This document shows positions 36,454 to 61,940 of a stretch of 64,000 bases of DNA, one piece after another. Under the pieces are notes generated by a model, which saw nothing but the letters and a program-made list of their open reading frames with translations, was not told the origin of the DNA and ran no database searches. The stretch covers positions 558,001-622,000 of the forward strand of contig NZ_JAGKSQ010000001.1 in NCBI RefSeq assembly GCF_017939705.1, read 5' to 3'. The position numbers and the translations under genes were made by a program. Each line of letters opens with the position of its first letter. The stretch's first letter is position 1. Source of the DNA: Halalkalibacter suaedae (GTDB lineage Bacteria; Bacillota; Bacilli; Bacillales; Bacillaceae_D).

Positions 36454-37542
36454 TTAATTACTATGCTTTCTAACTGGTCGCTTCAGCACAAACCGTCTAA
36501 ACATATTTATTAGTGGCTTTCTTCGGTTCCCAATGAGTCCAATCAATTCTGCTGACAACTCGATAAGAAGAAGTAAGACGGCGATAATGATAACTGATCC
36601 CCAAAGTGCAGCGTTGGAGAAAACGATAGCAGATACTCCAAAGAATATATTGACAACATATATTATTAAAACCGTCTTGCGGTGACTGAATCCCATCTCT
36701 AATAAGCAGTGATGTAAGTGTGACTTATCTGGTTCAGAGATCTTTTTCTTATTCAAGATTCTTCTTACAATCGCAAAGATTGTATCGAAAATCGGAATTG
36801 CCAGGATTATAATTGGTATAACTAAGCTAAATACAGTAACACTTTTGAATAATCCCATAACAGATATAACGGCAATTGCGTATCCTAAAAAGAGAGCTCC
36901 TGTATCGCCCATAAAGATCTTTGCAGGATTGAAGTTAAACGGTAGAAATCCAAGAATACTTCCAATTAAAATAATGGCAATTGGAACAACTAGGTATTGC
37001 CCATCAAGTATAGCCATCGCTAGGATTGAAGCTAGAGCAATTGTTGATACACCAGCTGCTAACCCGTCCAATCCATCAATTAAATTAATGGCATTAGTTA
37101 TGGCAACAATCCATAGTACAGTTAAAATTGCACTTAGCACAAATCCTAATTGAATCTGGACATCAAAAGGTAAATTGATTAATTCTATTCTAAGACCAGA
37201 CATGACAACAATACCCGCTGCCAATAACTGGCCGATTAGCTTATATTTTGCAGAAAGTGTATACAAATCATCCAATAAACCAACAATAACAATAATTCCT
37301 GCTCCTACAATAATAGAAGTAATATATGGTGATTCAACTGGGACAATTAGGAATCCAGCGATTGTCCCTATAATAATAGCAATCCCACCCATTCTAGGCA
37401 TTACTTGCTTATGAACTTTCCGATAATCAGGTTGATCAACTGCGCCTATTGCTTTTGCAAACTTAATCACAAGTGGTGTCGAAAGAAGCGATACTGTAAA
37501 AGCAACAAAAAAGGCAAGAATATATAACTCCAACTGACTCAA
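36454..37542 (-). CDS. tagO: TagO/WecA-type undecaprenyl-phosphate GlcNAc-1-phosphate transferase
   Basis: The roughly 362-residue polytopic membrane enzyme loads GlcNAc-1-phosphate on the C55 lipid carrier, the first step of wall teichoic acid or teichuronic acid synthesis. Family motifs are VDQPDYRKVHKQVMPRMGG, LLDDLYTLSAKYKL, NAINLIDGLDGLAAG, FMGDTGALFLGY and SHLHHCLLEMGFSHRKT. About ten membrane helices are evident. A TTG at 37542 with GTAGGTG upstream is my preferred start; an in-frame GTG at 37578 is the alternative. It begins the surface-polymer region; in B. subtilis tagO also lies close to degSU. Confidence 0.92.
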   Translation of the reverse strand: MSQLELYILAFFVAFTVSLLSTPLVIKFAKAIGAVDQPDYRKVHKQVMPRMGGIAIIIGTIAGFLIVPVESPYITSIIVGAGIIVIVGLLDDLYTLSAKYKLIGQLLAAGIVVMSGLRIELINLPFDVQIQLGFVLSAILTVLWIVAITNAINLIDGLDGLAAGVSTIALASILAMAILDGQYLVVPIAIILIGSILGFLPFNFNPAKIFMGDTGALFLGYAIAVISVMGLFKSVTVFSLVIPIIILAIPIFDTIFAIVRRILNKKKISEPDKSHLHHCLLEMGFSHRKTVLIIYVVNIFFGVSAIVFSNAALWGSVIIIAVLLLLIELSAELIGLIGNRRKPLINMFRRFVLKRPVRKHSN

Positions 37543-37752
37543 ACTTACACCTACTTTCAATTTAAAAACGTAAACCACTTAATACATAGTAATCTTATCT
37601 TTCAGGGATTTCAACAGAAATTTTGTCCGGGCTGAATAATTACAAACTTTTTCATTAAGTTACAAATGATATTAGTTGTATGGGACTATATTTTTAATGT
37701 CCCAAATAAAGAACTAATCATTCCACATTCACCAAAATCCCAATTAAAGGTA

Positions 37753-38517
37753 CTAAATATGCTTACGTGCTGAGCTCATTGCATAGGAGAGAAAACATCG
37801 TACTGTCTTAATTAACGAAAGTTTCTCGATTTTTCTGTATACGTACCAATTTTGCTTAGCTGCCTTCAACTTATTAGAAGAAATGGAGTTGGCACCTTTT
37901 CGATAAAGCGCTAAATTTTCTTGAAGGCCATATGCTTTGTAGCCACGTTTCAAAATTGACAACCATAATACGAAGTCTTGTCTTGTCCGCATATTAACCA
38001 TCTTAATGTCTTTGACCTTTTCCCTATTAATCATTACTGTTAAACATCCAATAATTGTATTCCTTAACAATCCTTCATAGTCAATAACCTCAGGGATATG
38101 AATTACTTTTCCTGTCCTTACACCGTCTACAGTCATATTTTCGTATTCCGTAAAAGAGAAATCGATATGATTTGTTTCCATAAAATGAATCTGCTTAGTT
38201 AATTTAGCTGGAAGCCATTGATCATCACTATCCAAAAAAGCAATGTATTTTCCATTTGAATTTTCTATCGCTGTGTTTCGAGCAATAGCAGCACCCGAAT
38301 TTTCATTTAAACTGATTAATCTGATTCGATTATCCTCTGCAGCATACTTTTTGATGATTTGACTTGAACGATCTGGAGATTTGTCATCAACCATAATGAG
38401 TTCCCAATTCTCATACGTTTGAGCTTGAACAGATTCAATCATTCCCTCAATATATAATTCAGCCTTGTACACAGGGGTAATAATGGAAACTAGAGGATTC
38501 TCGTTAGTTTTGTCCAT
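37753..38517 (-). CDS. Family 2 glycosyltransferase
   Basis: The 254-residue protein is a GT-A fold enzyme: PLVSIITPVYKAELYIEGMI, WELIMVDDKSPDRS and the DxD-type IAFLDSDDQW, all near the N-terminus. It lacks membrane helices and probably adds a sugar to a lipid-linked glycan on the cytoplasmic side. The ATG at 38517 follows AAGGAGGAG and overlaps the upstream gene by 14 bp. The gap to tagO (37543-37752) holds a small TGGGAC/GTCCCA hairpin without a T tail. Sugar donor and acceptor are unknown. Confidence 0.88.
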   Translation of the reverse strand: MDKTNENPLVSIITPVYKAELYIEGMIESVQAQTYENWELIMVDDKSPDRSSQIIKKYAAEDNRIRLISLNENSGAAIARNTAIENSNGKYIAFLDSDDQWLPAKLTKQIHFMETNHIDFSFTEYENMTVDGVRTGKVIHIPEVIDYEGLLRNTIIGCLTVMINREKVKDIKMVNMRTRQDFVLWLSILKRGYKAYGLQENLALYRKGANSISSNKLKAAKQNWYVYRKIEKLSLIKTVRCFLSYAMSSARKHI

Positions 38518-39037
38518 CTTGATACTCCTCCTTAAACTCAATACTCGAGATCTTCCACTGGGATGCCTCTCTAATTACGATCACATTTACTCGTAGCTTG
38601 TTATCTCTGTCGTACCATGAAACCATTGCTTCTGTATCTTGTTCAAGCAGTGTATATATAGGACGATTTAAATCTGAAGATAGTGACACGTATCGGTTAA
38701 TAAATTGATCGTATTCTTCATCTCCTTCTGTTTGTTCAAGAATTTTATGGTTTACAAACTCACTTAAAAAAGGGTCACTGAAATAGCGACTTAAATATTC
38801 TTCATAGTCTTCTCTTGTCTTAAGAGATGACTCTTCATTCTCTTCTTTTTCAAGCTTATATAATTTGAACTTAGCGACTTCCATATAAGTCATAATTTCT
38901 TGTTTTTGGTTTGGACTTAATTCGGGTATATCGTGCTCATCTTGATATTTAATACTTTCAGTTTGGTCCATAAAAAAGAAACCTGTTAAAAAAAAGACTA
39001 GTAATACCATCCAAAATATCCTTTTTACAATTTTCAT
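38504..39037 (-). CDS. Hypothetical membrane-anchored or secreted protein
   Basis: The 177-residue protein has one N-terminal hydrophobic segment (about 6-22) without a clear lipobox, then an acidic, helical extracytoplasmic part. I do not recognise a family. Its C-terminal part (MVSWYDRDNKLRVNVIVIRE then ASQWKISSIEF) resembles the NTF2-like or secretion-linked beta region of small lipoproteins, but this is weak. GAGAGAGGG precedes the ATG at 39037. It is translationally coupled to the following glycosyltransferase and so probably acts in the same polymer pathway. Confidence 0.6.
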   Translation of the reverse strand: MKIVKRIFWMVLLVFFLTGFFFMDQTESIKYQDEHDIPELSPNQKQEIMTYMEVAKFKLYKLEKEENEESSLKTREDYEEYLSRYFSDPFLSEFVNHKILEQTEGDEEYDQFINRYVSLSSDLNRPIYTLLEQDTEAMVSWYDRDNKLRVNVIVIREASQWKISSIEFKEEYQDGQN

Positions 39038-39074
39038 ATTAAACCCTCTCTCCTCTAAACCCAATCATAAACAT

Positions 39075-39192: not shown

Positions 39193-40065
39193 TTATTGAA
39201 GTTCCTTCATTTTTTCTATCAAATACTCTTTAACAGAATCCTTTAGATCGTCACGCATAAGAGCAAAGTCAACTGTTGCTTGGACAAAGCCAAGCTTATT
39301 TCCGATGTCATATCGCTTTCCTTTAAATGCATATGCATACATATCCTGAGAAAAGGTTAGCTGTTGCAGGGCATCCGTTAGTTGGATCTCGTTCCCTGCA
39401 CCTGGCGTTTGATTACTAAGGATATCAAAGATTGCCGGGGTTAACACATATCTACCCATAATGGCCAAATTAGATGGAGCCTCGTCCATTGGCGGCTTTT
39501 CAACAAGACCATTAACAGTATAAATATCTCCATCCTTAGTCCCATAGTTAATCACACCATAGTTCGATAATAAACTTCTTTCGACTTCTTGTACTCCAAT
39601 TACTGTAGATTGCTTTTCTTCAAATAAATTGATTAACTGCTTCAAACATGGTTCCTCAGAAACAACAATGTCATCTCCAAGCATAACAGCGAACGGATCG
39701 TCTCCGACAAATTTACGTGCACACCAGATGGCATGTCCTAGTCCCTTAGGTTCTTTTTGACGAATATAATGGATATCTGCCATGTCGGAAATGGCCTTCA
39801 CTTCCGCAAGCTGCTCAATCTTGCCCTTTGCCAGTAATGTTTCCTCGAGCTCAAGTGAACGGTCAAAGTGGTCTTCAATTGCCCTCTTTCCACGTCCAGA
39901 TACGATCAGGATATCTTCAATGCCAGAAGCGACTGCTTCTTCAATAATATATTGGATTGTTGGTCTATCTACAATTGGCAACATTTCTTTAGGCTGTGCC
40001 TTCGTTGCAGGTAAAAATCTTGTTCCTAAACCGGCTGCTGGAATGATAGCTTTTTTCACCTTCAT
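39193..40065 (-). CDS. galU: UTP-glucose-1-phosphate uridylyltransferase
   Basis: The 290-residue enzyme makes UDP-glucose. It starts [20 protein letters not shown] (residues 2-21), the nucleotide-binding loop, and has [40 protein letters not shown] and VEKPP. AAGGAGTG precedes the ATG at 40065. B. subtilis GtaB, its likely orthologue, supplies UDP-glucose for teichoic acid glucosylation and glycolipids. It follows the polymerase gene by about 12 bp. Confidence 0.95.
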
Positions 40066-40077
40066 AACAAACACTCC

Positions 40078-41448
40078 TTATTTAATTGATGTCTTTACTG
40101 AACGACGTTTGGCTAGTTCCATTATGATAAACATAATGATTATGACTGCCCAGAAACGTGGCGACGCAAAATCAGACCGATATAATGATGTAACCGCTAA
40201 GTGAAACCATAAAATAATTGCATAAAGGTAGTAATTGTTCTCGTTCCGTTTTAGAAATAGTTTTACACCTATTGTGACAAACATTGTTGTAAAAACAATA
40301 AATCCAAATATCCCATGTTCAAACAAGATATCGATAAATACATTATTTGATGTCACTGCAACCGAACCACGATGATGAAGGAATTTAGTTAGGTTTAAGA
40401 ACTCATATCCACCTGGTCCAAAGCCAAAGATGCTATTGATAATCGAATAATCAAACAGCCAGAAGAAAGGCATTACAAGCATATAAAGTCTGCTATGATG
40501 CTGAATATCAAAAATAGTTTCCACTCTTCCCAAGATTGGACTTAGGAATTGCATAACTAATCCTGTATTAAATAATCCAATAATAATAAGTGGGATTAAA
40601 CCATAGCAACTGTAAATGAACACTTTCTTTTTGTTCGGCATTCTTGCAGTAATTAAAATAAGAACAATAAAGGCTATAACCATTGCAAGATTAGCATAAC
40701 CACTTACTGCAAAGGAGAAGATAAGAACAAACATCCCTGGCAAGAAGAATTGAATAAAATAACGCAGCTTACTCTTAAAAAAGAAAAATGCAATTAATAA
40801 TCCATCAATAAGAAATGGAACAAGATAACTTGGTTCATCCGTTAAAGACGTCAAACGGAAATTAAAGAGAACATCGCTGTTAACACTATGTACAAACGAA
40901 CGTGTGTCTAGAGTAAACATTGGATATCCAATCAGGAAATGTAGGAATTGCCAAATCCCAAACAAAATAATTACAAAAATTCCATACACATAGGCTTTAG
41001 CAATCGATTCAAGCGTTTGATTTGAAAGCAAAGAGATGAATTTTAGAAAACACACAAATAATATTAGAAACAACAACATGTTAATAACTCTTGTTGGCAG
41101 TGAAGCCGTAAAATACTCAACATATTCACTAGAAAGAACCACAGTTAAATTATATGCTCCTGCTAGTATAGCGATAAGACCTGGAATATACAACGCAAGT
41201 ACAAAAGCTCTTTGTTCTTTGTCTAGTGGGTTTAGTAGGGACGATTGCTTACTAACGTATTTAAAGTAGACAATCAAAAATAACAAACCAAATCCAGATA
41301 AAAAGGTAACAAGAACAGAAGTAGGAGCTGGTAACAATGTTTGATAGATCCTTGAAACAGAGAACGGTGCCAAAAACATAAAAATGGCCATTAAAACTAG
41401 TATTATTTTTTCAAGATTGCTTTGAAGAAAGTCAGTTAATTTTGCCAA
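40078..41448 (-). CDS. O-antigen ligase / Wzy-like polymerase membrane protein
   Basis: The 456-residue protein has about twelve membrane helices and, near the C-terminus, a large loop with GFGPGGYEFLNLTKFLHHRG followed by SNNVFIDILFEHGIFGFIVF, the Wzy_C signature with the conserved histidine region. Such proteins polymerise or ligate lipid-linked repeat units on the outer face of the membrane. It starts with TTG after GAGGTATC. With the flippase and glycosyltransferases nearby it implies a Wzx/Wzy-type surface polysaccharide. Confidence 0.85.
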   Translation of the reverse strand: MAKLTDFLQSNLEKIILVLMAIFMFLAPFSVSRIYQTLLPAPTSVLVTFLSGFGLLFLIVYFKYVSKQSSLLNPLDKEQRAFVLALYIPGLIAILAGAYNLTVVLSSEYVEYFTASLPTRVINMLLFLILFVCFLKFISLLSNQTLESIAKAYVYGIFVIILFGIWQFLHFLIGYPMFTLDTRSFVHSVNSDVLFNFRLTSLTDEPSYLVPFLIDGLLIAFFFFKSKLRYFIQFFLPGMFVLIFSFAVSGYANLAMVIAFIVLILITARMPNKKKVFIYSCYGLIPLIIIGLFNTGLVMQFLSPILGRVETIFDIQHHSRLYMLVMPFFWLFDYSIINSIFGFGPGGYEFLNLTKFLHHRGSVAVTSNNVFIDILFEHGIFGFIVFTTMFVTIGVKLFLKRNENNYYLYAIILWFHLAVTSLYRSDFASPRFWAVIIIMFIIMELAKRRSVKTSIK

Positions 41449-41604
41449 TTTAGATACCTCATCTTTTCATCTCTATTATGCTCAATAATCATATCACAAT
41501 CATTCTATCTGGAAAACACTTGTCACGATCTCGTAAAGAAAACTTATTTCATTTTTTCAAATTAAATACTATAATTGAGTTACTAATACATTTTGGGGGA
41601 TTTT

Positions 41605-41970
41605 ATGAAGGTTCGCATTTTCTTACCTATATTGATTATAATTTGTTTTATCTTAACAGGTTGCGGGGATCAAACATTAGTTGTTCGAACTCCACTAGAA
41701 GGAGACAGTTACATACGCAATAATATACAGGAACTTAACTGGCCTATGTTCTCTACTTTAATATCAAAGAACAGCAACATTCAAGAAGATGATTTTCTCA
41801 ATTTACAGCAAACATTAACCGAATTTCCTCATACTCGATACATTCTTGTAAAGGATGAATTATTTCGGTTTAATCCTAGGGGACAGATGCTCTATTATAC
41901 TGATTGGATTGAAGAGGATGGCTATTATAAACTAGATTTGCTTGAGTTTCCCCGTTATGGTTCTAATTAA
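41605..41970 (+). CDS. Small hypothetical lipoprotein
   Basis: The 121-residue protein has a basic start, a hydrophobic segment and a lipobox LTGC at about Cys20, so it should be anchored outside the membrane. No family is recognised. TTGGGGGA precedes the ATG at 41605. It is one of few plus-strand genes here, lies divergent to the polymerase gene and ends at a terminator shared with the converging glycosyltransferase gene. Confidence 0.65.
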   Translation: MKVRIFLPILIIICFILTGCGDQTLVVRTPLEGDSYIRNNIQELNWPMFSTLISKNSNIQEDDFLNLQQTLTEFPHTRYILVKDELFRFNPRGQMLYYTDWIEEDGYYKLDLLEFPRYGSN

Positions 41971-42023
41971 AAAAAAGATCTCCTTCCTTCTACAACTTAG
42001 TAGTAAGAATGGAGATCTTTTTT
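41971..42023. terminator. Bidirectional terminator
   Basis: AAAAAAGATCTCC (41971-41983) pairs with GGAGATCTTTTTT (42011-42023), with additional inner pairing CTAC/GTAG. Confidence 0.88.
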
Positions 42024-42813
42024 ATTTATATGCGAAAAGTTCTTTAATCGTATCTAGATAATATTTAACAGGCTTTTCAAGATGATTTATTTTTTTTATG
42101 AAAAGCATTGTTAGAAGGACGAATCCTATAGGAAGATTAAACATTCTTCTAAACAACGGCCCTTTACTCAAAAAGGTCCTGTAATTCAACCTTGACTCGG
42201 TAGTTGGTTTTAAGTGATAGACAACAATATCCGGTTGATAGCTTATTGTGAATCCAGCCCGCCTCATGTCATTAAGAAAAATATTTTCTTCTCCACTGGG
42301 GTACTTCGCTCCTAAACCAAAATCCTCATCAAAAGCAATCTTGCCTTTATCAACAACGTTCAAATTCACGAATATTTCAATAGAAGAGATTCGAAACAAA
42401 TGCCTTAATTTAACATTTAACTCACTTTTTGCTGAATAATTCTTATAATACAGATTTTGTTCAGGGTCAAAAATCTGATAACATACAAGCCCCGAGGTAT
42501 TAGTGTTAAAAAAGGCGATTACTTTTTCAAAGGCATTCCTATCATACCAACAATCATCATCAGAAAAAGTCACAATAGTACCGGAGACTTCAGCCAACCC
42601 AATGTTTCTTGCGTAGGACAATCCTTTGCGGTTTAACTCAATATGCTTATATGAAAACTTATAATGTGCAAGTAACTCTGATACAGTGTCATGGTTTCCT
42701 TGTGATACAACGATAACTTCAAATTCCTGTGATGTTTGATCGGCAAGACTCGTAAACAGCCGATTAAGCTCATCTTTTCTTAAACCTAAAGTAGGTATGA
42801 TAATACTAATCAT
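42022..42813 (-). CDS. Family 2 glycosyltransferase
   Basis: The 263-residue enzyme has ISIIIPTLGLRKDELNRL, FEVIVVSQGNHDTV, GLSYARNIGL and the metal-binding VTFSDDDCWYD. A hydrophobic stretch near residues 225-240 may give peripheral membrane attachment. It is the last gene of a three-gene set with a flippase and another glycosyltransferase. Substrates are unknown. Confidence 0.87.
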   Translation of the reverse strand: MISIIIPTLGLRKDELNRLFTSLADQTSQEFEVIVVSQGNHDTVSELLAHYKFSYKHIELNRKGLSYARNIGLAEVSGTIVTFSDDDCWYDRNAFEKVIAFFNTNTSGLVCYQIFDPEQNLYYKNYSAKSELNVKLRHLFRISSIEIFVNLNVVDKGKIAFDEDFGLGAKYPSGEENIFLNDMRRAGFTISYQPDIVVYHLKPTTESRLNYRTFLSKGPLFRRMFNLPIGFVLLTMLFIKKINHLEKPVKYYLDTIKELFAYK

Positions 42814-42898: not shown

Positions 42899-44326
42899 CT
42901 AAAATCTTTCTTTTAACCTTCTTAACACTTGATCTCTTACCGAAAGTATATTTAGTAATAGACACGCTATAACGTAGACTCCTAATCCAACAACCACTTG
43001 TATAATTAGCATTTGCCAACCTGAATAACCTCGAAGTAGTGATAGAACAAAACACATGAAACCTGTAGCAATAGCTATTTTGGTTAATTCCATATAAGCA
43101 ATTGGAATAGAGTGTATTTGAAAGTGAACAATGAGCCAACCTGATATTACTGCTACGAGATAGGCTGTGACTGTCGCAAACGCTGCTCCTTCAATCCCAT
43201 ACTGAGGAATTAACATGAAGTTTAAAACAATATTAACAATTGCAGCGATCACAACTGGTATAATTTGAAGCTTTGTTTTTCTTTGAATATGAAACATTAT
43301 ATCCACACAATACAGTTTAAAGCCTTTTAATAACGCACCCACTACGATGAATGGAACTAATAAAAGCCCTTGGTTTTGGAACCCTTCTCCTAATAAAACA
43401 GAAATAATATTAGGTCCTAATACAATAAAAGCCCCTGCAGCGGGCAAAGCAATAAAAAATAGTAGACTGATGTTCTTTTTAACTTGATCATAAGCCGCCT
43501 TCTCACCCTTCTCTTCCATCATTTTCATAGCAATAGGAAAAGCAGCCAAGTTAATGATCATCATTAATGTAAAAATCGATTGCTCTGTTAAATCATACGT
43601 ACTTGCGTAAATACCCGTTTCTGCTTTTGAGAGCAAATGATCGATGATTAAACGATCCGAGTTATGAATGATTACTCCAAGCAACAACGTTAGTGTTAAT
43701 GGCGTTCCATAGCTTGCGAATTCTTTTAACAAGGATTTGTCAAAAGCTTTTACGTTTAGTGAAAGCCCCCAAGTTTTAATTGTTGGTAAGATTAGAGCAA
43801 GCCAAAAACCAATGATTAAGCCGGCAAGTAGCCCTTGTTCACCAAAGCCTAAATAGATAAGAATCGTCCCGAATAGAAAGCCAAGTGTAGCTCGACTAAA
43901 GGCAATTACTCCATATTTCTTAGGTGCTAGCTCTGCACGTGCAAGCGATAAATTCATATTTGCCCATGATTGCGACCAAGAAAGTAATAGGATAAATCCT
44001 ATACTTACAGCTGAAAATTGCTCACCATAAAAAGCAAAAATAAGTAATGAAAAAATAGCCGTTACAACCATGATAGCCATAAAAGAAAGCTTCACTGTTT
44101 CAATCACTTGAGGGGAATGCCCATATTTCGGATAAAAGCGTAATAGGCTCAATCTTAACCATTCAAACATAACTGAATTCACTACAGCGGCCATTGCAAA
44201 CACTATTGCATATACCCCGTACTGCTCAGGTGTAAGCAAATTTGTATAAACAACAATACTTATAAAACCAATAATTGAAGGAATTCCGTGTGAGAAAAGA
44301 TAAGCAATTGCGTGTCTTGATAACAT
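42899..44326 (-). CDS. Polysaccharide biosynthesis flippase (MOP/Wzx-like)
   Basis: The 475-residue protein has about fourteen membrane helices and the MATE/MOP layout: LFSHGIPSIIGFISIVVYTN at the start, LLTPEQYGVYAIVFAMAAVV, and FMLIPQYGIEGAAFATVTAY near the end. It should flip lipid-linked repeat units across the membrane for the Wzy-like polymerase encoded nearby. The ATG at 44326 follows GAGGAGAAC; a longer frame to 44437 overlaps the upstream gene. Confidence 0.9.
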   Translation of the reverse strand: MLSRHAIAYLFSHGIPSIIGFISIVVYTNLLTPEQYGVYAIVFAMAAVVNSVMFEWLRLSLLRFYPKYGHSPQVIETVKLSFMAIMVVTAIFSLLIFAFYGEQFSAVSIGFILLLSWSQSWANMNLSLARAELAPKKYGVIAFSRATLGFLFGTILIYLGFGEQGLLAGLIIGFWLALILPTIKTWGLSLNVKAFDKSLLKEFASYGTPLTLTLLLGVIIHNSDRLIIDHLLSKAETGIYASTYDLTEQSIFTLMMIINLAAFPIAMKMMEEKGEKAAYDQVKKNISLLFFIALPAAGAFIVLGPNIISVLLGEGFQNQGLLLVPFIVVGALLKGFKLYCVDIMFHIQRKTKLQIIPVVIAAIVNIVLNFMLIPQYGIEGAAFATVTAYLVAVISGWLIVHFQIHSIPIAYMELTKIAIATGFMCFVLSLLRGYSGWQMLIIQVVVGLGVYVIACLLLNILSVRDQVLRRLKERF

Positions 44327-44352
44327 TAATTGTTCTCCTCTACCAATAAGTT

Positions 44353-45237
44353 CTATTTCTTTAATAAGCGTTGCACTAGTGTTCTGGAGACAATCAGTAT
44401 ATTCTTTGGATCCAATACAATTCCTGCGAGCGTCCATGGTATAGATTTATAGGCAAGGCTCCAGTTCTTTGCACCAAGGGCATTTAAGAACAACTGTGAT
44501 TTTACACGGTGAAGGTTTTTTTTATTTTTATGGATATCTTCTTTATACTTAGTATAAAAATTCAAGTTACCATTAAGTTTTTTTTCAAAGCTTTTGGAAA
44601 TGTTATCTGTATTGTCTACTCTATATAAGGTTAATGATTGGTTAATAAAAGCCACTTTTGCCTTTTCGGATACACGAACATACAGTTCTAAATCCTGGTA
44701 AGAAGAAAAGGATTCATCAAGTCCGTCAAGCTCCTTTAGTAGCTTTGATTCAATCGCCACAGCACTATATGTCCCGATCCAATTCGTATAAAGTAAGGAA
44801 TCTCGAATCCAACCCTCTTTTCCATGTGAATAGAGTTTCAATTCTTTCCTCTGTTTGAAATCGTAATATGTAAACGCCGAATAGACGAGTCCTGTTTCAG
44901 CATCTGCTTGAGCTATTCTTTCATAAAACTTCTCTAGCTTCTCTTCAAGCCAAACATCATCGTCATCTAAAAAGGCAATCCAAGAACCTTTAGCTGAAAA
45001 AATACCTTCATTTCGTGCACCACCTCCACCTTTTTGACGTGTGTTTTTCTTATATATAATTCTTTCGTCGTTTAGGTCTGTTATAACCTTTTCTGTGTCG
45101 TCGGTAGAATGATCATCAATCACAATAATTTCAAAATCAGAAAATGTTTGCTTCAAAACACTTTCTATCGCTTCTTTCATAATTGCCGAGCGGTTATACG
45201 TTGGCATGATAACCGTGAAAAAGGGATTGGTACTCAT
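44353..45237 (-). CDS. Family 2 glycosyltransferase
   Basis: The 294-residue enzyme has PFFTVIMPTYNRSAIMKEAI, FEIIVIDDHSTDDTE, GGGGARNEGI and WIAFLDDDDVWLEEKL, a textbook GT2 active site. AAAGGAGTAACG precedes the ATG. It is the first gene of the flippase set. Substrate unknown. Confidence 0.9.
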   Translation of the reverse strand: MSTNPFFTVIMPTYNRSAIMKEAIESVLKQTFSDFEIIVIDDHSTDDTEKVITDLNDERIIYKKNTRQKGGGGARNEGIFSAKGSWIAFLDDDDVWLEEKLEKFYERIAQADAETGLVYSAFTYYDFKQRKELKLYSHGKEGWIRDSLLYTNWIGTYSAVAIESKLLKELDGLDESFSSYQDLELYVRVSEKAKVAFINQSLTLYRVDNTDNISKSFEKKLNGNLNFYTKYKEDIHKNKKNLHRVKSQLFLNALGAKNWSLAYKSIPWTLAGIVLDPKNILIVSRTLVQRLLKK

Positions 45238-47774: not shown

Positions 47775-48851
47775 TTAGACTTTTACATACTTTTTGTTCA
47801 AATGCATGATAATAGCAACAACTGACCAAAAAAGGACAAATAGAAAAGCATAACCTACCTTTGAAGGGACAAACCGATGTAGCACATCAGCTATTGTTGA
47901 ATCCATGCCAATAACATTCAATGTGATTTTACTAACAAAAGTTAGTAAAATTAATTTACCAAAATAAATAAGTAAACTATTCTTTCCAAATGCGGTCAAA
48001 TATACGACCACAGGATTTTGTTTTGTTAAAAAGTTCTTCTTATCTATTAACCAATACAAGCAACCTAAAAGAAACAATGTCATCCCGGTCGTTACTAAAC
48101 TAAAAGACGGAGACCAAATCCGTTTGTTAAAATCAATCCATTGAGAGAAGACACAGCCGATTAGGATAAAGAGACCACCAATCAAGAGGAGAGTCATTGT
48201 CTTTTTGTTAATATCTTTTCTTATTAAAATTAATCCGATCGCATATCCGGCTAATACATTTGTTAAAGCAGAAATCATATTAACGAAGCCTTCAGGATCA
48301 AAGCCACTACTACCGGCTCGGTATAGATGAACGTCAGTAAATAGAAATCGATCAATTTTAAAACTAGCTAGGCAGTCTGCCTGTGGAATGAGTCCCCCAC
48401 ATGTCTGACTTGTTCCGATTAGGAAAAATAGATATAGTGTGCTTATACTAATAGAAAGTAACAAGATATACGGTATCCTTGTCACAAGACGTGTGAGTAG
48501 AATGGTAAATAGACCAGCAATGGCAAAGAGTTGCAGAACACCTGTAAAGCGCAAATTATGTATGTCTATGCTCCATGAAACAATCATATTAAATAGCAGC
48601 CCGAAAAGGAGTAGCAAAAACGTTCTTCTCATTAATTTCTTCCAATTAACACCTTTGAAATTAGCAATCGCAAGACCAACTCCAAAAAGGGTTAAGAAAG
48701 CTGGAAATATAAAGTCAGTGATCGTTAATCCATACCATTCTGCATGTCTAAATAGGGGATAACCTCCATAAGGGAGTGCACTTACAAAAACTGATAATAC
48801 AACAACAAAACCCCGAAGGACATCTATTGATTCAATGCGCTTTTGTATCAT
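47775..48851 (-). CDS. HGSNAT-like (DUF5009/DUF1624) membrane acyltransferase
   Basis: The 358-residue protein has about ten membrane helices and begins KRIESIDVLRGFVVVLSVFV, the start shared by heparan-alpha-glucosaminide N-acetyltransferase relatives; TITDFIFPAFLTLFGVGLAI and FGKNSLLIYFGKLIL also fit. Such proteins move an acyl group from a cytoplasmic donor to an amino sugar outside. It diverges from a PIG-L-type deacetylase lipoprotein across about 70 bp. Acceptor not known; a wall or surface polymer is likely. Confidence 0.78.
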   Translation of the reverse strand: MIQKRIESIDVLRGFVVVLSVFVSALPYGGYPLFRHAEWYGLTITDFIFPAFLTLFGVGLAIANFKGVNWKKLMRRTFLLLLFGLLFNMIVSWSIDIHNLRFTGVLQLFAIAGLFTILLTRLVTRIPYILLLSISISTLYLFFLIGTSQTCGGLIPQADCLASFKIDRFLFTDVHLYRAGSSGFDPEGFVNMISALTNVLAGYAIGLILIRKDINKKTMTLLLIGGLFILIGCVFSQWIDFNKRIWSPSFSLVTTGMTLFLLGCLYWLIDKKNFLTKQNPVVVYLTAFGKNSLLIYFGKLILLTFVSKITLNVIGMDSTIADVLHRFVPSKVGYAFLFVLFWSVVAIIMHLNKKYVKV

Positions 48852-53700: not shown

Positions 53701-55443
53701 TTACCTTTTTCTGTAATATTCAACAATACCTTCATAAATGGCATTTGCCGCTTTTTCTCGATATTTAGTCGTTTTAAGCTTATCTGAATCACTTTTGTTA
53801 GAGAGAAAACCTAATTCTACAAGAACCGCTGGCATTTTCGTGTTTCTCAAAACAGAGTAATCGTTCGACTTAACCCCTCTATTAGTCGTACCTAGCTCTT
53901 GGTATAATAGATTTTGAATTAGTGTTGCAAGTTCCTTAGAATTATTATCCTTAGACCAATACGTCTCCGTTCCATTGGCTGATTCTAAACGAAAACCATT
54001 TGCGTGGATACTAATAAACGAACTTGCATTCGCTTCATTAGCAATTTTCGCTCGATTCACTAGTTCAATAAATGTATCGTCTCTACGCGTCATTACAACA
54101 CGTGCACCTTGAGCCTCAAGTTTCTTTTCTACTCTTAAAGCAACATCAAGTACTAGTTCTTTCTCGACAATTCCGTCGTAAGCTGCCCCACCATCCTTAC
54201 CGCCATGACCAGCATCAATCGCAATAATTTCACCAGCTACTGGAGAAGAAGAAGATGGTTGCGAAATTGTAACATAGGTCAGACTAATATAGCCCCAGCC
54301 TGAACCATATTTAATCTTAGCCCAACCTCCAATTACTTCGTGAATCTCTACTTTAGTTCCATTCGATAGTGCACCTATACGATCACCAGAAACAGGTGCA
54401 TTTCTTACATTTAAAGTACTACTTACCTTTACAGTACCATATTGAACCGTTTGAGGTTGGTTTGCATTCTGTATCCGATCAACTATTGAGGCACTAACTG
54501 CTGCAGTTCCTCCTAAAATAGTTGTTCGTTGATTAGAGTTTGATAAATAGTCAATCACCTTTGATGATGGATTAGTCGGATGCGTTAGAATAATAGGAGC
54601 TTGTAATCGCTTTGCGAGACCTGATGCTGCAACAGCGTCAGGGTAATCCTCTCCACTATTTTTCACTGACGTTCCTCGAACAAGAATATTAGCATCACCC
54701 GAGAGTCCTGCCCATTGAGCCACTTTAATGCTTGTCTCATATCGATCAGAACCTGAAATACGAGTAATCTTTAAGCCCCGAGATACTAAACTATTTTCAA
54801 ATGACTGACTGATAGCTGCCGTCCCGCCAAATATTAGGACATTCCTAACAGATTGAGGTAGATCAACCGGTAGTCGGTTTTGATCAGCCAAATAAATAGG
54901 GAAGCCTTTATTCGCTGCAACACTTGAAGCAGAAAGTGCATCTGCAACGGTTTTCCCATTCACAATAATCGCCGTGTCATTTGATAATAGTCCAGCCTCT
55001 TTGTTTATTTCATAAGCTGTTGTGAAGCGTTCTTTTCCTGATATCCTCTTCACATTGAACTCATTCTTTAGTTTCTCTTCAACAGTACTACTTATCGCCA
55101 TTGTTCCGCCAAGTAGATAAACCTGTGTAGCTTTTAGACGTCTAATTTCATTAATAATTCGACTATCTAACTGATCACTATCTGTTAGCAGAATCGGTGC
55201 ATTCTTAGTAGCGACTAATCCTGCTGCAGCCAAAGCATCAGCTGGGTGATCTGACCGGGCCAGGATAACTGTAGGACTAGTTGTCCAACCTTTTTTTGAG
55301 ATTTCAATCGCTGTTCCTAATCGATCACTACTAGAAATTCGTTCAATTGTCTGATTTGCCGAGACTTGTCCTACCCCAAATAGTAGTCCCAATGTAACTA
55401 CTATAAGTAAAAAGGGAAGGTGTTTTTTCAGTCTAACTTGCAT
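53701..55443 (-). CDS. LytC-like N-acetylmuramoyl-L-alanine amidase: CWB2 x3, SH3b, amidase_3
   Basis: The 580-residue protein has a signal peptide (1-29), three CWB2 repeats (about 32-325), a bacterial SH3 domain (about 335-393, SSTLNVRNAPVSGDRIGALS) and a zinc amidase_3 domain (405-580) with ligands His413 (AGHGG), Glu427 and His480 (SIHANG) and catalytic Glu543 (LVELGFLS). It cuts the bond between MurNAc and L-alanine. CWB2 repeats before the amidase is the order of B. subtilis LytC, which however lacks an SH3 domain as far as I know. It should act in cell separation or turnover. Monocistronic. Confidence 0.94.
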   Translation of the reverse strand: MQVRLKKHLPFLLIVVTLGLLFGVGQVSANQTIERISSSDRLGTAIEISKKGWTTSPTVILARSDHPADALAAAGLVATKNAPILLTDSDQLDSRIINEIRRLKATQVYLLGGTMAISSTVEEKLKNEFNVKRISGKERFTTAYEINKEAGLLSNDTAIIVNGKTVADALSASSVAANKGFPIYLADQNRLPVDLPQSVRNVLIFGGTAAISQSFENSLVSRGLKITRISGSDRYETSIKVAQWAGLSGDANILVRGTSVKNSGEDYPDAVAASGLAKRLQAPIILTHPTNPSSKVIDYLSNSNQRTTILGGTAAVSASIVDRIQNANQPQTVQYGTVKVSSTLNVRNAPVSGDRIGALSNGTKVEIHEVIGGWAKIKYGSGWGYISLTYVTISQPSSSSPVAGEIIAIDAGHGGKDGGAAYDGIVEKELVLDVALRVEKKLEAQGARVVMTRRDDTFIELVNRAKIANEANASSFISIHANGFRLESANGTETYWSKDNNSKELATLIQNLLYQELGTTNRGVKSNDYSVLRNTKMPAVLVELGFLSNKSDSDKLKTTKYREKAANAIYEGIVEYYRKR

Positions 55444-55550: not shown

Positions 55551-55585
55551 AAAAGAGGTCAATTCATAAAGAATTGACCTCTTTT
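55551..55585. terminator. Terminator of the family 4 glycosyltransferase gene
   Basis: Perfect 15-bp stem AAAAGAGGTCAATTC (55551-55565) with 55571-55585; the right arm lies within the last codons of the gene. Confidence 0.88.
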
Positions 55586-56673
55586 CTATTAACTAAACTT
55601 TTATATAAATTCTCCATCTCAATAATGTTGTCTGTCCAATTGTATTTCCTTTTGACAAGCTCTCTACCTTTCTTGCCCATCGCTTCTCGCAAGGACTGAT
55701 CCATTACATATTCATATAACCGAGCAGCTACCATAGAGCTATTCTTACTTTCAACAACAAATCCTGTTTCTCCATCTAGCACTACTTCTGGCAGTCCACC
55801 TACATTTGAAACTATAACAGGTATCTCACAAGAAGAGGCCTCAATTACAGCCACGCCAAAGCTTTCTTGTAAACTCAGTGCACAAAAAACATCAATCTTA
55901 TTTAAGTATTTAGGCACCTCTTCATGAGGCACAGCTCCAGTAAACGTTGTAATTGAACTAATATTATTAGACACGGCTAGGGTTTGCAAATCTTCATATT
56001 GACTCCCCTCTCCTACAATGAGAAGCCTAATTCGCTTTGCAGTTTGTGTATGTCCCTCTTTATTGAGCCTATCTACCAATTTCCCAACCGCTTCTATCAG
56101 ATAATTGACACCATAAATCTCTTCTAAAGTCTTTATCGTTCCAATAACAATATCTTCGTTGTTTTTAAACGTATCCACTCGTTTAAATCGCTCAATATCT
56201 ACACCAAAAGGAGTTAAAGCAATTGGTTTGCTATGATTGACAAGAGACTCCGTTTTCTCCTTCATCACTTCACTTGTCGAAGCGATAAGAGTAGCAGCTA
56301 ACAGGTTCTTTTTAAGGATCCGTTGTTTTAACTTACTCTTTGTAGGAAACGAAAAAACATCACTCCCCCATACAGAAAGCAGTGTTGGCTTAAAATTAGT
56401 TAGTCTTGATAAAGTTCCGTAACCACTAGCAAAGTGAGCATTAACAATATCTGGATTAACTTCCTCCAAAATCCTTCTAACTTTTCTTGAGGCAATATAG
56501 TATCCAATCGGTAACGAGAATTTCAAATGTATCACTTTAACATCTTTATGGAACTTGTTCATTGAAGGAGCGTGAAGAGATATTAGAGTTACTTCATGAC
56601 CTCTTTCTGCCATCGCATTAACCCATCTAACTGTATGTATGACAGAGGCTCCCGAAAGAAAACATATTTTCAT
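55564..56673 (-). CDS. Family 4 glycosyltransferase
   Basis: The 369-residue GT-B enzyme begins MKICFLSGASVIHTVRWVNA and has the C-terminal donor-site motif ESFGVAVIEASSCEIPVIVS then GGLPEVV. It probably transfers a nucleotide-activated sugar to a lipid-linked glycan. It stands between two CWB2 protein genes, away from the other polymer genes, and has its own promoter and terminator. Sugar and acceptor unknown. Confidence 0.9.
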   Translation of the reverse strand: MKICFLSGASVIHTVRWVNAMAERGHEVTLISLHAPSMNKFHKDVKVIHLKFSLPIGYYIASRKVRRILEEVNPDIVNAHFASGYGTLSRLTNFKPTLLSVWGSDVFSFPTKSKLKQRILKKNLLAATLIASTSEVMKEKTESLVNHSKPIALTPFGVDIERFKRVDTFKNNEDIVIGTIKTLEEIYGVNYLIEAVGKLVDRLNKEGHTQTAKRIRLLIVGEGSQYEDLQTLAVSNNISSITTFTGAVPHEEVPKYLNKIDVFCALSLQESFGVAVIEASSCEIPVIVSNVGGLPEVVLDGETGFVVESKNSSMVAARLYEYVMDQSLREAMGKKGRELVKRKYNWTDNIIEMENLYKSLVNRKEVNSL

Positions 56674-57305: not shown

Positions 57306-60300
57306 TTAGTTAAGACCACTATATAATGTTTTAAGATCTTCTAACACTTTTGCACTTATGGCACCTTCACCACCGAAAACTGTTACATTACGGAATGAGT
57401 TACCAGTAATATAATCAGCTACTTCAGCAGATAAATCATTACCAACAAGGACGATTCCTGTGTTGTGTTTAGCAGCTAAAGCAGAACCTGTTAAAGCATC
57501 TGCAAAGTTCTTGCCAGTTGCAACAAAGGTTTGATCTGCATCAGAAGCAAATTTCTCGATTACTGCCAGGTTTGTTTCATAACGAGTTGACCCCGAAATT
57601 CGAACAGCTCCAGGAACCATTTCCGTTACTTCATTACCAACAACAGCTGTACCACCGATCACAAACGTCTCATCTACACCAAGACGATCAAGCGTACGAA
57701 CAGTTGAATATTGAATTTCATTTTTGTTAGCTAATAAAATTGGCATACCAGCTTTTGCAGCGTACGGTGCAATGGAAAGAGCATCTGGGAAGTCAAATCC
57801 ATTTACTACAACTGCTTTGTCTGTACCATTTGGTGCAACCTGCTTAGCGATTTGCTCAGCTGTTTCGTAACGATTTGCACCTGAAATACGTTCTACTTCA
57901 AGATTAAGTGCCTCTAATTCAGATACAACATCTTCACTAACTACTGCTGTACCACCGAGAACAATAACTTTCTCTGCACCAAGTCTAGTAATCTCAGCAG
58001 AAGTTGCTGCATTTAATGAACCAGTACTTGTTAACAATACCGGAGCATCATTTTTGTAAGCAAGCGGTAAACCTGCTAACGCATCTGCATAGCTATTAGA
58101 ATTAACAAGTACAACTGTACTCGCAGTTTCCCAGCCAGCTTTACTAGTTTCAACTGCAGTTTCAAAACGAGTAGCTCCAGAAAGACGACTAACCACTTCA
58201 TCGACACCGGATACTTTATTAATTGTTACGTTCTTAACTGTTTCGTTACCTGCAACGTCTGTTAAAACTAATTCAAATGTATTTTCACCAGATTCTAGAG
58301 AAACCGTTTGTTCAACAGCACGTTCGATTGAGCGCATCTCGTATGGTGATTTGAACTCTTCATACAATACTTCAGAACCATCGATTGAGAAACGAAGCTC
58401 ATCGAAATTATCCTTCAGTGTAATACTTAGTGTTGCTTCTTCTTCAGTTGTGTTAGTTGGTGCAGAAACTTCAATAACAGGTTCTTGTGAATCCACTATA
58501 ATCTGTCTGTTAAGATGTGCTTCGTTACCAGCAACGTCCACTGTTTCAATCTTAATATCATATACCCCGTCTGCTTCAACGTTTACAGTCCCACTGAAAT
58601 TGTAACGATTAGTATCCGCATCGTACGTTACAGGAAATTCTTCACCTGCGACAGTAACTACCTTAATTTCAGAGGCATTTGTTACATAACCCTGTACAGG
58701 TACTTCTTGCGTATTATAGTAACCTAAAGTCGATGGATGTGTGATAAATAGAAGCGGCATAGAATTATCACCAATTCCTTTAACTTCACCAACTCCATCA
58801 TTACGAGCAAAATCTGTCGCTTTGACAGTAATAGTTGCACCTGTTGGTACATCTGTTAAATCTACTTGATAATTATTTGTTTCATTTGAAGGGATAACCT
58901 CATCTTTACCTAAAATACTTGTCCCATTAACTAGGATATCAAAGTGAGAAACTCCACTTTGTGCATCCTCTGCACTCCATGTTAACACTTCGCTTTCTGC
59001 ATCGTAGTCAACTTCGACAACAGGAGCTACTGTATCCACATGAATTGGAAACTGAAGTTTTTGCCACTCAGCATCCGAAAAATCAACTTTTGCTTTAATT
59101 TCATAAATATAGATGCCGTCTTCAACTACCTTATTTTTCACTTTTCCATCCCAAGCCGCAGCACCAACAAGATTGGTTGATCTAGTTTGGTCGAAGTTCT
59201 TACTAACATCTTTTTGAGTCGTGATCGTTCGTAAGTGTTTACCATCCTTATCCAAAACATTATACTGTACTTCTTTCGCATTTCTTAAGAAAGAAAGGTA
59301 AGGCATAATGCTGTTTAACGAAGGTGAGAATGCAAGACGCTCTTCTGCACCAGCGTAGTTGTTTGTTCCCTCAGGCCCCGGCTTAAAGCCTAAGCGCAAG
59401 TCCGTGTTAGTAATCATTCCAGTAGTACCATAAAACGTGTTTTCATCGTAGTGCGGGGCGTCAACAACAGGAGCTTGATCCCAATCACCATTGAAACCAA
59501 CAAATGGTACGCTTAATGAAGGATTTGTATCAGTTGGATCAACAAAAGTAACAAAACCTTCGACAAAATACCCATTTTCAAAGTTTTCCTTAAGCGATTC
59601 TTCTGTTCCCTCTAAAATGTTTTGCATTTTCGCTGCAGATAAATCAATTTCAAAATCTACAGTAACTGTGCTACCAGGTGTTACTGTTACATATTGAACA
59701 ACTTGACCACCCACGGTGTGTTTCACTTCTGCATCAACAATTGGAGCTGCTTCAAGCTCACTTGGATTAAAACCGAGCTCTCCAGAGACAGCTAGATCTG
59801 TTTGCAATGTCTTTTCAACATCGTATTGGACTGTTTCATCACTGAAGTTTGTAACATCTAACTTAAATGTCACATGATCTGTTACTTCTTTAAGTGCAAC
59901 CTTCGCCACACCATCTTCCGGATTTACGACATATGCAGGTGTTGTGCTTGCTGCATGTAAATCCATTTGTCCAGCCCCTTGACGACGTGGAGAATAGTAG
60001 TTATTCCATCCAAGCACATCATTTACGTAACTAAGATCCTTTAATGGTGTTGCTGTATTCATTAAAATATTCTTCGCAAGTAGTGCACGTTCTGTACCAT
60101 TTACACCAAATTCAGCATCGATACGTTCAAGGATTAATGCAGAACCACCAGCTACGTGCGGTGCAGCCATTGAAGTACCACTCATCAAACCATAAGAGTT
60201 ATCTTCAAGTGTAGAAAGAATATTACCACCTGGAGCTGTAATCTCAGGCTTAAAGTCTAAGTTCGGAGTTACACCCCATGAAGTAAATGAAGACATCGAA

Positions 60301-61940
60301 CCAGCTTCTGGGTTGAGTGTAGTCGTTGCAGCACCTTCTTCAAACTTCATTGTTACTGTTTCGCCATTAGTAAGACGCTCAACTAACGCATCCCCTTCTG
60401 ATTTACCGATAGAGACGTGCGGAATTGTAATTTCGTTACTTGATGCCATTGAGATGAAACCAGCAACGTTATTGTAAATAATAGAACCGACAGCACCAGC
60501 AGCTTGTGCAGCCAATGACTTATCAACAAATGCATATGATCCACGCTGGATAAGAGCAATCTTACCTTGAACATCTTTACCTTCAAAGTCAGCCGGAGCA
60601 CCTAAGCCTGCATCTACAATTTCATACTCACCAGTCAGTTCAGTTGGATGAACATTTCCAGCTGAAAGATATGGAATCAATCCTTTATCTCCATTACTTG
60701 CAGTAAATTCCAACGCTTCCATTTCGATGTAGCTATTTTCACTTGAAGCTACAGAGACAGATTCATTAGATAAAGAAGGAGAACCAGTTAACCCGATATC
60801 CGGATTTGAAGCATATGGATTTGCAGCAGCATATCCATTAGAGAAATGTGCAGAGTTACCTGCAGAAATTGAAGCAACCACTCCACTTTCCTGTGCAATA
60901 CGGATCGCTTTTTGTTCAGGGTCCTCTGCATTAACAAATGCCGCAGTTGCACCTAAACTTAAATTTAATACGTCAACCCCTAATTTGATAGCATCGTCGA
61001 TTGCCTTAACATAAATATCACCATATGTCGTTTGAATCATCGGATCGTTACCAAATACCTTTAGGGCAAGCAGCTGCGCTTCTGGAGCTACCCCTTTAAT
61101 ACCGCCATTTTCTTCATCACCATTCGCAGCAGATGTACCACCTACATGCATACCGTGAGAAGCTGAAGACACTTGATCTAAGATATCAAAGCTCTTATCA
61201 ATATAGTTGTAGCCATAAGGAACTTTCTCAGTAAACCATTTACCAGGAGCGTCACTTGCTTCTACGTCCTCTTCAGTGATTTTATAGTCTGTTCCTTCAC
61301 TTAGGATCATGTCACGGTGACTTGGATCAATACCAGTATCGATAATACCGATAACCATCCCTTCACCTTTATAGCCAAACTCATCCCAAGTTTTTTGAGC
61401 GTTGACCATACCCTTACTATATTTCATTTCAGTCGATACTTCTGGACGCTCATATTCATTTACAATATGAACTGCCTTAACTCCGCTCAATCCTTCAATT
61501 ACTTTAAGATCAGCGAACTGAACCGTACCACTGAAACCGTTATATGCTGCAGTGAAGTTATGAATATAATCCATATCAACATTATTGCTTTCGATTGAGG
61601 ACTTCACTTGCTCTTGAACAGCCAAAGCATCTGTTTCAATTTCCTCTTGTTTTGCAGCTGATAATTCGTCATATTTCACCCCGGCGTTCACTGCATATGT
61701 AAGACCCGGGTTCTCTTCTAATTCAACAACAATACGAACTTCGTCTGTGCTTTTATACGTATTGGCAAGTAGGTCGTTATCAATCTCAACCTTCTCACCA
61801 ACTGTCGACATCGCAGCACGAGCAGGAAGATCAAGCGACATTCCTTGTGCTTGTCCACTAGTAGCTAGGAAACTGAAATTTGATAGCAAAATAACAGCTA
61901 CTAAGAAAACTTTAAATACTGGTTTTAATTTTTTTGGCAC
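57306..61940 (-). CDS. Large Vpr-like subtilase with PA domain, beta modules and three CWB2 repeats
   Basis: The 1544-residue secreted protease has a signal peptide (about 1-32), an I9-like propeptide (about 65-165), an S8 domain split by a PA domain (about 430-540): Asp201 (IIDTGID), His262 (SHGMHVGG), Asn362 (SAGNSA) and Ser590 (SGTSMAAPHVAG). Then come an Fn3-like region (about 660-850), further beta modules resembling those of lactocepin/C5a-peptidase relatives (up to about 1240), and three CWB2 repeats (about 1250-1544). The His motif is HGMHVGG rather than HGTHVAG. CWB2 repeats replace the LPXTG anchor of streptococcal relatives. GTG start with AGAGGGG upstream. It may release peptides for the Opp systems. 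Confidence 0.93.
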   Translation of the reverse strand: MPKKLKPVFKVFLVAVILLSNFSFLATSGQAQGMSLDLPARAAMSTVGEKVEIDNDLLANTYKSTDEVRIVVELEENPGLTYAVNAGVKYDELSAAKQEEIETDALAVQEQVKSSIESNNVDMDYIHNFTAAYNGFSGTVQFADLKVIEGLSGVKAVHIVNEYERPEVSTEMKYSKGMVNAQKTWDEFGYKGEGMVIGIIDTGIDPSHRDMILSEGTDYKITEEDVEASDAPGKWFTEKVPYGYNYIDKSFDILDQVSSASHGMHVGGTSAANGDEENGGIKGVAPEAQLLALKVFGNDPMIQTTYGDIYVKAIDDAIKLGVDVLNLSLGATAAFVNAEDPEQKAIRIAQESGVVASISAGNSAHFSNGYAAANPYASNPDIGLTGSPSLSNESVSVASSENSYIEMEALEFTASNGDKGLIPYLSAGNVHPTELTGEYEIVDAGLGAPADFEGKDVQGKIALIQRGSYAFVDKSLAAQAAGAVGSIIYNNVAGFISMASSNEITIPHVSIGKSEGDALVERLTNGETVTMKFEEGAATTTLNPEAGSMSSFTSWGVTPNLDFKPEITAPGGNILSTLEDNSYGLMSGTSMAAPHVAGGSALILERIDAEFGVNGTERALLAKNILMNTATPLKDLSYVNDVLGWNNYYSPRRQGAGQMDLHAASTTPAYVVNPEDGVAKVALKEVTDHVTFKLDVTNFSDETVQYDVEKTLQTDLAVSGELGFNPSELEAAPIVDAEVKHTVGGQVVQYVTVTPGSTVTVDFEIDLSAAKMQNILEGTEESLKENFENGYFVEGFVTFVDPTDTNPSLSVPFVGFNGDWDQAPVVDAPHYDENTFYGTTGMITNTDLRLGFKPGPEGTNNYAGAEERLAFSPSLNSIMPYLSFLRNAKEVQYNVLDKDGKHLRTITTQKDVSKNFDQTRSTNLVGAAAWDGKVKNKVVEDGIYIYEIKAKVDFSDAEWQKLQFPIHVDTVAPVVEVDYDAESEVLTWSAEDAQSGVSHFDILVNGTSILGKDEVIPSNETNNYQVDLTDVPTGATITVKATDFARNDGVGEVKGIGDNSMPLLFITHPSTLGYYNTQEVPVQGYVTNASEIKVVTVAGEEFPVTYDADTNRYNFSGTVNVEADGVYDIKIETVDVAGNEAHLNRQIIVDSQEPVIEVSAPTNTTEEEATLSITLKDNFDELRFSIDGSEVLYEEFKSPYEMRSIERAVEQTVSLESGENTFELVLTDVAGNETVKNVTINKVSGVDEVVSRLSGATRFETAVETSKAGWETASTVVLVNSNSYADALAGLPLAYKNDAPVLLTSTGSLNAATSAEITRLGAEKVIVLGGTAVVSEDVVSELEALNLEVERISGANRYETAEQIAKQVAPNGTDKAVVVNGFDFPDALSIAPYAAKAGMPILLANKNEIQYSTVRTLDRLGVDETFVIGGTAVVGNEVTEMVPGAVRISGSTRYETNLAVIEKFASDADQTFVATGKNFADALTGSALAAKHNTGIVLVGNDLSAEVADYITGNSFRNVTVFGGEGAISAKVLEDLKTLYSGLN

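Follow-up and report, generated by a model that had tools for sequence, protein, structure and literature searches.

LytC and LytB of Bacillus subtilis carry CWB2 repeats, and in Bacillus anthracis the binding of SLH domains reportedly requires tagO and csaB. In Clostridioides difficile, according to the available part of PMC4973711, CWB2 binds the polymer PSII, an Ile-Leu-Leu motif is needed for this anchoring, and the CWB2-triplet genes of the S-layer and Cwp proteins lie beside the PSII (AP) locus with its glycosyltransferases and flippase. The wall teichoic acid cassette of B. subtilis, bounded by yvyE, comprises tagV, tagO, tua genes, lytC, lytB, lytA, tagU, mnaA, gtaB and tag/tar genes (PMC8753576, available part). 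Among the matches listed in our literature searches, this cassette was the only bacillar locus comparable to the one analyzed here, which occupies positions 36454 to 61940 of a 64,000-nucleotide stretch of the Halalkalibacter suaedae genome (contig NZ_JAGKSQ010000001.1; the whole stretch is called the window below) and in which genes for five CWB2 proteins are interleaved with genes for a wall polymer.

We consider it fairly probable that these proteins bind a wall polymer whose synthesis depends on tagO, most probably that of the locus itself. The link between CWB2 and polymer is one of shared place and not of a particular polymer, and the two form no obligatory pair. In the proposed scheme, TagO would load a sugar phosphate onto the lipid carrier, four glycosyltransferases would assemble the repeat unit, the flippase would carry it outward and a Wzy-type polymerase would link the units in a presumably teichuronic-acid-like chemistry, while an LCP ligase, one of five with genes outside the locus, would attach the chains to peptidoglycan. 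Probably secreted, the five CWB2 proteins would be held non-covalently by the tagO-dependent (most probably local) polymer, an anchoring that would keep lytic enzymes and proteases in the wall.

CWB2 enzymes at tagO

As the earlier note on this DNA had proposed, in each of the five genes three CWB2 repeats are combined with a catalytic module that differs from gene to gene (SpoIID, subtilase, NlpC/P60, amidase_3 and a Vpr/C5a-peptidase-like subtilase). PF04122 matches three stretches in every one of these proteins, with whole-protein scores of 179.6-196.7 bits (cut-off 24.9). The separate termination of the genes, also claimed there, agrees with our predictions: all five are predicted to be followed by a hairpin and U-run, directly in four cases and, for the subtilase at 49793..51925, ∼110 nt downstream, where the predicted hairpin is common to the convergent PIG-L gene. 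The genome as a whole contains 33 CWB2 repeats grouped into 11 proteins. All six proteins encoded outside the window likewise have three tandem PF04122 repeats, combined with SLT, amidase_3, CAP, S8 or GH18 domains or (in one case) with no other Pfam match. Four of the 11 genes lie no more than 20 kb from tagO (binomial P 2.3e-6, neighboring genes not being independent). A recent local expansion of CWB2 genes was considered and rejected, because across genomes the CWB2 triplets group mainly according to enzyme.

Clustering of CWB2 genes at tagO is seen in several genera and families. In a sample of 40 genomes (including this one), nine were CWB2-positive, and seven of these had one or more CWB2 genes no farther than 20 kb from tagO. 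Over the nine genomes, 20 of the 45 CWB2 proteins were encoded within this distance (one single-repeat fragment of G039 was dropped from the count), compared to 0.8-2.1% expected where tagO exists; P values for single genomes ranged from 2.4e-12 (the congener G009) to 0.065 (G039, a member of another family). A Wzy-type polymerase and a flippase were present in the same region in six of the seven genomes with CWB2 near tagO; in the seventh, G039, a Wzy_C gene is found beside other CWB2 genes on another contig.

Gene content and the kind of polymer

The genes of the locus and of its left boundary are as follows (window coordinates, strand, assignment).

16427..22100, strand unspecified: genes that we take to be comFA, degV-like, degU-like and yvyE-like, together with degS; left boundary of the cassette (Pfam matches to DegS and a DEAD-box helicase)
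36454..37578, minus: tagO, polyprenyl-phosphate sugar-1-phosphate transferase, polymer start on the lipid carrier (PF00953 149 bits)
37753..38541, minus: GT2 glycosyltransferase, TuaG-like (NCBIfam TuaG 360.8 bits, below the cut-off of 400)
38504..39064, minus: small protein with a hydrophobic N-terminus (no match in Pfam or NCBIfam)
39193..40074, minus: galU, UTP-glucose-1-phosphate uridylyltransferase (TIGR01099 393.9 bits, above cut-off)
40078..41448, minus: putative Wzy-type membrane polymerase, a weak assignment (Wzy_C 18.6 bits, below the cut-off of 31.7)
41593..41970, plus: small lipoprotein adjoining the polymerase gene on the opposite strand (lipobox read in the sequence; no Pfam match)
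42022..42813, minus: GT2 glycosyltransferase (PF00535 84.7 bits)
42899..44437, minus: MOP-family flippase, Wzx (PF13440 69.6 bits; HfsF 203 bits, below cut-off)
44353..45237, minus: GT2 glycosyltransferase (PF00535 126.1 bits)
45376..47619, minus: SpoIID/LytB-type enzyme with 3 CWB2 repeats (PF08486 88.9, PF04122 194.6 bits; predicted terminator)
47775..48851, minus: membrane acyltransferase, HGSNAT/NagX type (PF07786 45.4 bits; NagX 100.1 bits, below cut-off)
48915..49646, plus: PIG-L deacetylase with a lipoprotein-like signal (PF02585 71.7 bits; lipobox read in the sequence)
49793..51925, minus: subtilase with 3 CWB2 repeats (PF00082 190.1, PF04122 184.8 bits; shared predicted terminator)
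52085..53548, minus: NlpC/P60 enzyme with 3 CWB2 repeats (PF00877 120.5, PF04122 179.6 bits; predicted terminator, z -5.2)
53701..55443, minus: amidase_3 (LytC type) with 3 CWB2 repeats and SH3b (PF01520 197.3, PF04122 182.4 bits; predicted terminator, z -5.7)
55564..56673, minus: GT4/GT1 glycosyltransferase (PF00534 129.9 bits; weak TuaC match, 115.4 bits against 550)
57306..61940, minus: Vpr/C5a-peptidase-like subtilase with 3 CWB2 repeats (PF00082, PA, fn3_5, PF04122 196.7 bits; predicted terminator, z -9.1)

The genes named in the earlier note were all recovered in their places: tagO, galU, the four glycosyltransferases (starting at 37753, 42022, 44353 and 55564), the flippase, the PIG-L deacetylase and the membrane acyltransferase. 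Its Wzy-like polymerase is present as a gene, separated from galU by 3 bp, while the family call itself is weak; all five aligned polymerase orthologs match Wzy_C at E <= 0.01, though weakly (best 1.7e-5). For tagO, the only other match in the genome, at 33% identity, is presumably MraY.

This gene set fits a TagO-primed, flippase- and Wzy-dependent polysaccharide like teichuronic acid, and not a teichoic acid of the TagF type, a chemistry that we infer from the genes. Neither TagB/F (PF04464) nor TagA/WecG (PF03808) had a match in this genome; as the assembly is 98.73% complete, their absence is likely, not certain. For this reason a canonical wall teichoic acid was rejected as the CWB2 target here, and so was a TagA-made linkage unit as a universal one.

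The resemblance to the tua operon is partial: the flippase is clear, the TuaG-like transferase scores below its cut-off, and the polymerase is below cut-off with weak matches of its orthologs. The locus differs from that operon in having no tuaD. In 16 of 18 polymerase-positive relatives a PF03721 dehydrogenase is located within ∼60 bp of the polymerase match (that of G013 has TuaD as its best NCBIfam match, 610.9 bits vs 700), a place held here by galU. The best PF03721 match of this genome is UDP-glucose-dehydrogenase-like, of the E. coli type (665.7 bits vs a cut-off of 757); together with galE it adjoins another CWB2 gene, 72 kb from tagO, and therefore UDP-glucuronate may still be available to the polymer. 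This group of genes (L039:8689-13130), in which the CWB2 gene encodes the SLT-CWB2 protein, is located ∼46 kb beyond the right end of the locus, at 70-75 kb from tagO; the dehydrogenase-like gene and galE could supply sugars for the polymer.

The yvyE/degSU boundary, combined with the yvyE-bounded cassette described in the available part of PMC8753576, leads us to take the locus as the same chromosomal cassette as tagO-tua-lytCBA of B. subtilis. The two have in common the yvyE boundary, tagO, a TuaG-like transferase, a flippase and a (here putative) polymerase, an amidase, a SpoIID/LytB protein and galU/gtaB. They differ in that the locus has five CWB2 enzymes where B. subtilis has two, includes PIG-L and NagX-like genes, lacks an LCP gene beside tagO and has 14 kb between yvyE and tagO, in addition to the unmatched TagA and TagB/F and the missing tuaD. 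The locus is thus a larger member of a known cassette type, with an arrangement that Bacillaceae were already known to have; given the published B. subtilis cassette, the suggestion of the earlier note that it had not been described in them was too strong. Its statement that B. subtilis has only LytB and LytC near tagO is right as to the presence of lytC and lytB and wrong as to "only", since tua genes belong to the same cassette (PMC8753576, available part).

In relatives, DegS- and YvyE-like genes were found beside tagO in 17 of 37 fetched tagO-containing stretches, with an LCP gene usually intervening between yvyE and tagO. They were absent from the stretches fetched for the CWB2-positive G001, G009, G010 and G035, and they were not beside the CWB2-near tagO of G028, some of the fetched flanks being short. 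Here the yvyE-tagO gap contains oligopeptide-transporter genes and an AsnC-type regulator (22447-35761) in the place where relatives usually have the LCP gene; the nearest of the five LCP genes of this genome is ∼57 kb from tagO.

The C. difficile arrangement is the other close parallel, with CWB2-triplet genes beside a wall-polymer locus in both. It differs in its mannose genes (pgm2, manC), which were not found in the window locus, the part of the genome searched for them, where GalU is the sole nucleotidyltransferase; in the SlpA- and SecA2-like genes, of which none was noticed in the window locus; and in that the window polymer starts with TagO (PMC4973711, available part). Moreover, as far as that text goes, CWB2 binding is demonstrated in C. 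difficile only. The SLH system with a pyruvylated polymer (B. anthracis type) is similar in its non-covalent anchoring to a tagO-dependent polymer, and SLH genes do occur near tagO in congeners of the window's species, but the anchor domain is different and SLH had no match in this genome at E <= 1e-5.

Several other genes of the locus have counterparts in relatives. The small protein at 38504..39064 gave weak matches of 22 and 27 bits in two CWB2-free loci, the GT2 enzyme at 42022..42813 has counterparts of 248-342 bits in seven fetched loci, both CWB2-positive and CWB2-free, and the lipoprotein gene at 41593..41970 is kept beside the polymerase in four CWB2-free loci (L021-L024, 96-107 bits). 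The NagX/HGSNAT-like acetyltransferase gene (47775-48851, minus strand), not found in the fetched loci of relatives, is divergent from the PIG-L gene (48915-49646, plus strand) at a distance of 63 bp, and the pair could jointly toggle N-acetylation of wall sugars. PIG-L genes are also close to CWB2 genes in G009, G028 and G039.

Candidate targets of the CWB2 proteins

With no match for TagA, TagB/F or SLH in this genome, the polymer of the local tagO/Wzy genes is, among the known types, the most likely target. The central claim of the earlier note, that the locus makes the polymer which its own hydrolases bind, is reasonable for this genome on the grounds that other known targets were not found; it is not a rule, since some relatives have CWB2 and no polymerase, and others the reverse. 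The claim is partly supported: the clustering at tagO and the scarcity of other known targets speak for it, while a fixed pairing of this polymer with CWB2 finds no support in relatives, G009 included.

A strict pair, in which the five CWB2 proteins would have evolved to bind a single specific polymer made by the locus, agrees with the interleaving of the two gene sets in the window and with the few known alternative targets that the missing TagA, TagB/F and SLH matches leave. Nevertheless, the related genomes make it improbable. The family sample of 41 genomes (including this one) contains 19 genomes with the polymerase and 6 with CWB2, and this genome is the only one with both. Among the 40 relatives, 18 are polymerase-positive (including G020 with a partial match at 36%) and five are CWB2-positive (four without G051, which has one weak repeat of 23.3 bits), with an overlap of 0 and a chance probability of 0.04; the family genomes being kin, we claim an absence of association and not avoidance. 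The co-occurrence that the earlier note had named as its own test was therefore not seen for the polymerase. For the flippase the outcome is mixed, as orthologs (at least 46%) occur in two of eight CWB2-positive relatives (G001, G010), but also in four of 31 CWB2-free ones (G013, G015, G018, G019). The Wzy and flippase genes of CWB2-free genomes were kept out of the statistics, the queries having come mostly from CWB2-positive loci, and a scan with the SpoIID-CWB2 protein (59 candidate stretches, with one relative, the metagenome-assembled L057 at 31% identity) was not used.

The congener G009 speaks against a strict pair even more directly. Its CWB2 genes for the amidase, NlpC, subtilase and SpoIID enzymes follow the window's order beside a non-orthologous, ManNAc-type set of polymer genes (MnaA, a ManNAc-dehydrogenase-like enzyme, TagA, MurJ, a GNAT protein, PIG-L, Wzy_C and GT1). 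In a maximum-likelihood tree of 39 CWB2 triplets, window and G009 form pairs for the amidase, S8 and NlpC enzymes (100/85, 100/99 and 100/97, respectively). The window's SpoIID triplet is closest to one from G039 (100/96), with that of G009 joining at 93/63, and the repeats have a different place in the G009 SpoIID protein. Three orthologous pairs are thus clear and the SpoIID pair is less sure. Identity between window and G009 in the CWB2 part and in the compared rest of the protein is 49.5 and 44.2% for SpoIID, 51.3 and 57.4% for S8, 59.8 and 61.1% for NlpC, and 63.6 and 60.6% for the amidase. The CWB2 parts (50-64%) are about as similar as the rest (44-61%), and so nothing suggests that the anchors were retuned to suit a different neighboring polymer.

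A side observation concerns the SpoIID-CWB2 protein (45376-47619), which is closer to L016:8255 of G039 (57.1% in CWB2) than to its G009 counterpart; horizontal transfer of cassette genes or a comparison of different paralogs may account for this.

The juxtaposition of CWB2 enzymes with differing polymer genes, and the grouping of triplets mostly by enzyme and not by genome, would also be expected if CWB2 in bacilli recognized a common wall feature (peptidoglycan, or a unit common to tagO polymers), in which case the local polymer genes would be irrelevant. We find this rather unlikely: a TagA-made linkage unit is a poor candidate in a genome without a TagA match, CWB2 genes do cluster at tagO, and in C. 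difficile the repeats bind a specific polymer, PSII (PMC4973711, available part). Alternatively, the tagO region could be a long-established hotspot of wall-enzyme and envelope genes, with CWB2 genes having no functional link to the polymer. The six CWB2 genes elsewhere in this genome are in line with such mere proximity, and so are the CWB2-free relatives that also have hydrolases near tagO (with SLH, SbsC_C, SH3b or PG_binding_1 domains). Several of these hydrolases, however, have domains with an established or presumed role in attaching proteins to the wall, SLH binding in B. anthracis is said to depend on tagO and csaB, and the clustering at tagO holds in several families, all of which makes a pure hotspot, in our view, a doubtful explanation too.

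Binding to a tagO-dependent polymer, the explanation that we favor, has its own evidence to answer. Apart from the zero overlap of polymerase and CWB2 among relatives, 25 of the 45 CWB2 proteins in the nine genomes are outside 20 kb of tagO; in this genome, six of the 11 are at least 70 kb away or are on another contig. G030 has CWB2 and tagO on different contigs, and G021 has a CWB2 protein and no TagO ortholog, with its CWB2 gene ∼3 kb from a TagF-like match. Of the 33 repeats of the genome, only 12 have the exact Ile-Leu-Leu motif; each window protein has it in a single repeat (5 of 15 in all), with hydrophobic variants in the rest. The lack of a TuaD UDP-glucose dehydrogenase in the locus bears on the charge of the polymer, and the literature searched, as far as its text was available, gave no evidence of CWB2 binding in bacilli. 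With its CWB2 enzymes and no match for teichoic acid backbone genes or SLH repeats, this genome offers a clean system for identifying the CWB2 target outside C. difficile.

Anchor domains beside tagO

In eight CWB2-free relatives, nine hydrolases encoded within ∼10 kb of tagO carry other domains. These are SbsC_C (an NlpC enzyme and an amidase of G017, an NlpC enzyme of G004), SLH (the SpoIID enzyme of G006, an amidase of G026), SH3b repeats (amidases of G032, G031 and G038, two of them also with Cu_amine_oxidN1) and PG_binding_1 (an amidase of G012). Ten hydrolases of CWB2-free genomes were picked by similarity to those of the window and give no frequency; the one from G013 matched only SH3-type and spurious domains. 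In the window's genus (13 genomes, including this one), CWB2 is present in four, all with CWB2 genes near tagO, and at least 25 SLH repeats are present in five others, of which at least four have SLH within 20 kb of tagO. In the family, genomes with at least three SLH repeats (12 of 41) and with CWB2 (5 of 41, leaving out the weak G051) do not overlap either, which is not significant (chance probability 0.16).

In our own reading, the hydrolase slot beside tagO is a wall-anchored one with interchangeable anchors, some genomes using CWB2 there and the rest different domains. A more far-reaching and quite tentative idea is that of an exchangeable tagO cassette in bacilli, in which hydrolase genes would be swapped along with polymer genes, keeping the anchor (CWB2, SLH, SbsC_C or SH3b) matched to the current wall polymer, the window representing one state. 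The B. subtilis gene table in the available part of PMC8753576 has a bearing on this idea. After tagO-tuaH, ribitol cassettes (clade I) begin with 4724-4730, 5418-5421 and 4734-4735, and glycerol cassettes (clade VI) with 4724-4736; lytC, lytB and lytA change cluster (5419-5421 vs 4731-4733), with the flanking tua and tagU-mnaA genes keeping theirs. From this change we infer, in a reading of the published patterns that is ours, that the lytCBA alleles go with the type of teichoic acid. If true, CWB2 alleles would follow the polymer type in B. subtilis. If anchors and polymers are exchanged together, the tagO neighborhood would help to predict the polymer bound by a surface protein, which would be of help in selecting phage lysins and in designing the surface display of proteins on bacilli.

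Among the CWB2-positive genomes, G001 has a single SLH repeat. Its cassette (L001-L002) contains genes for a subtilase-CWB2 protein, TuaG and the flippase that are each split over more than one frame, which suggests decay or assembly errors.

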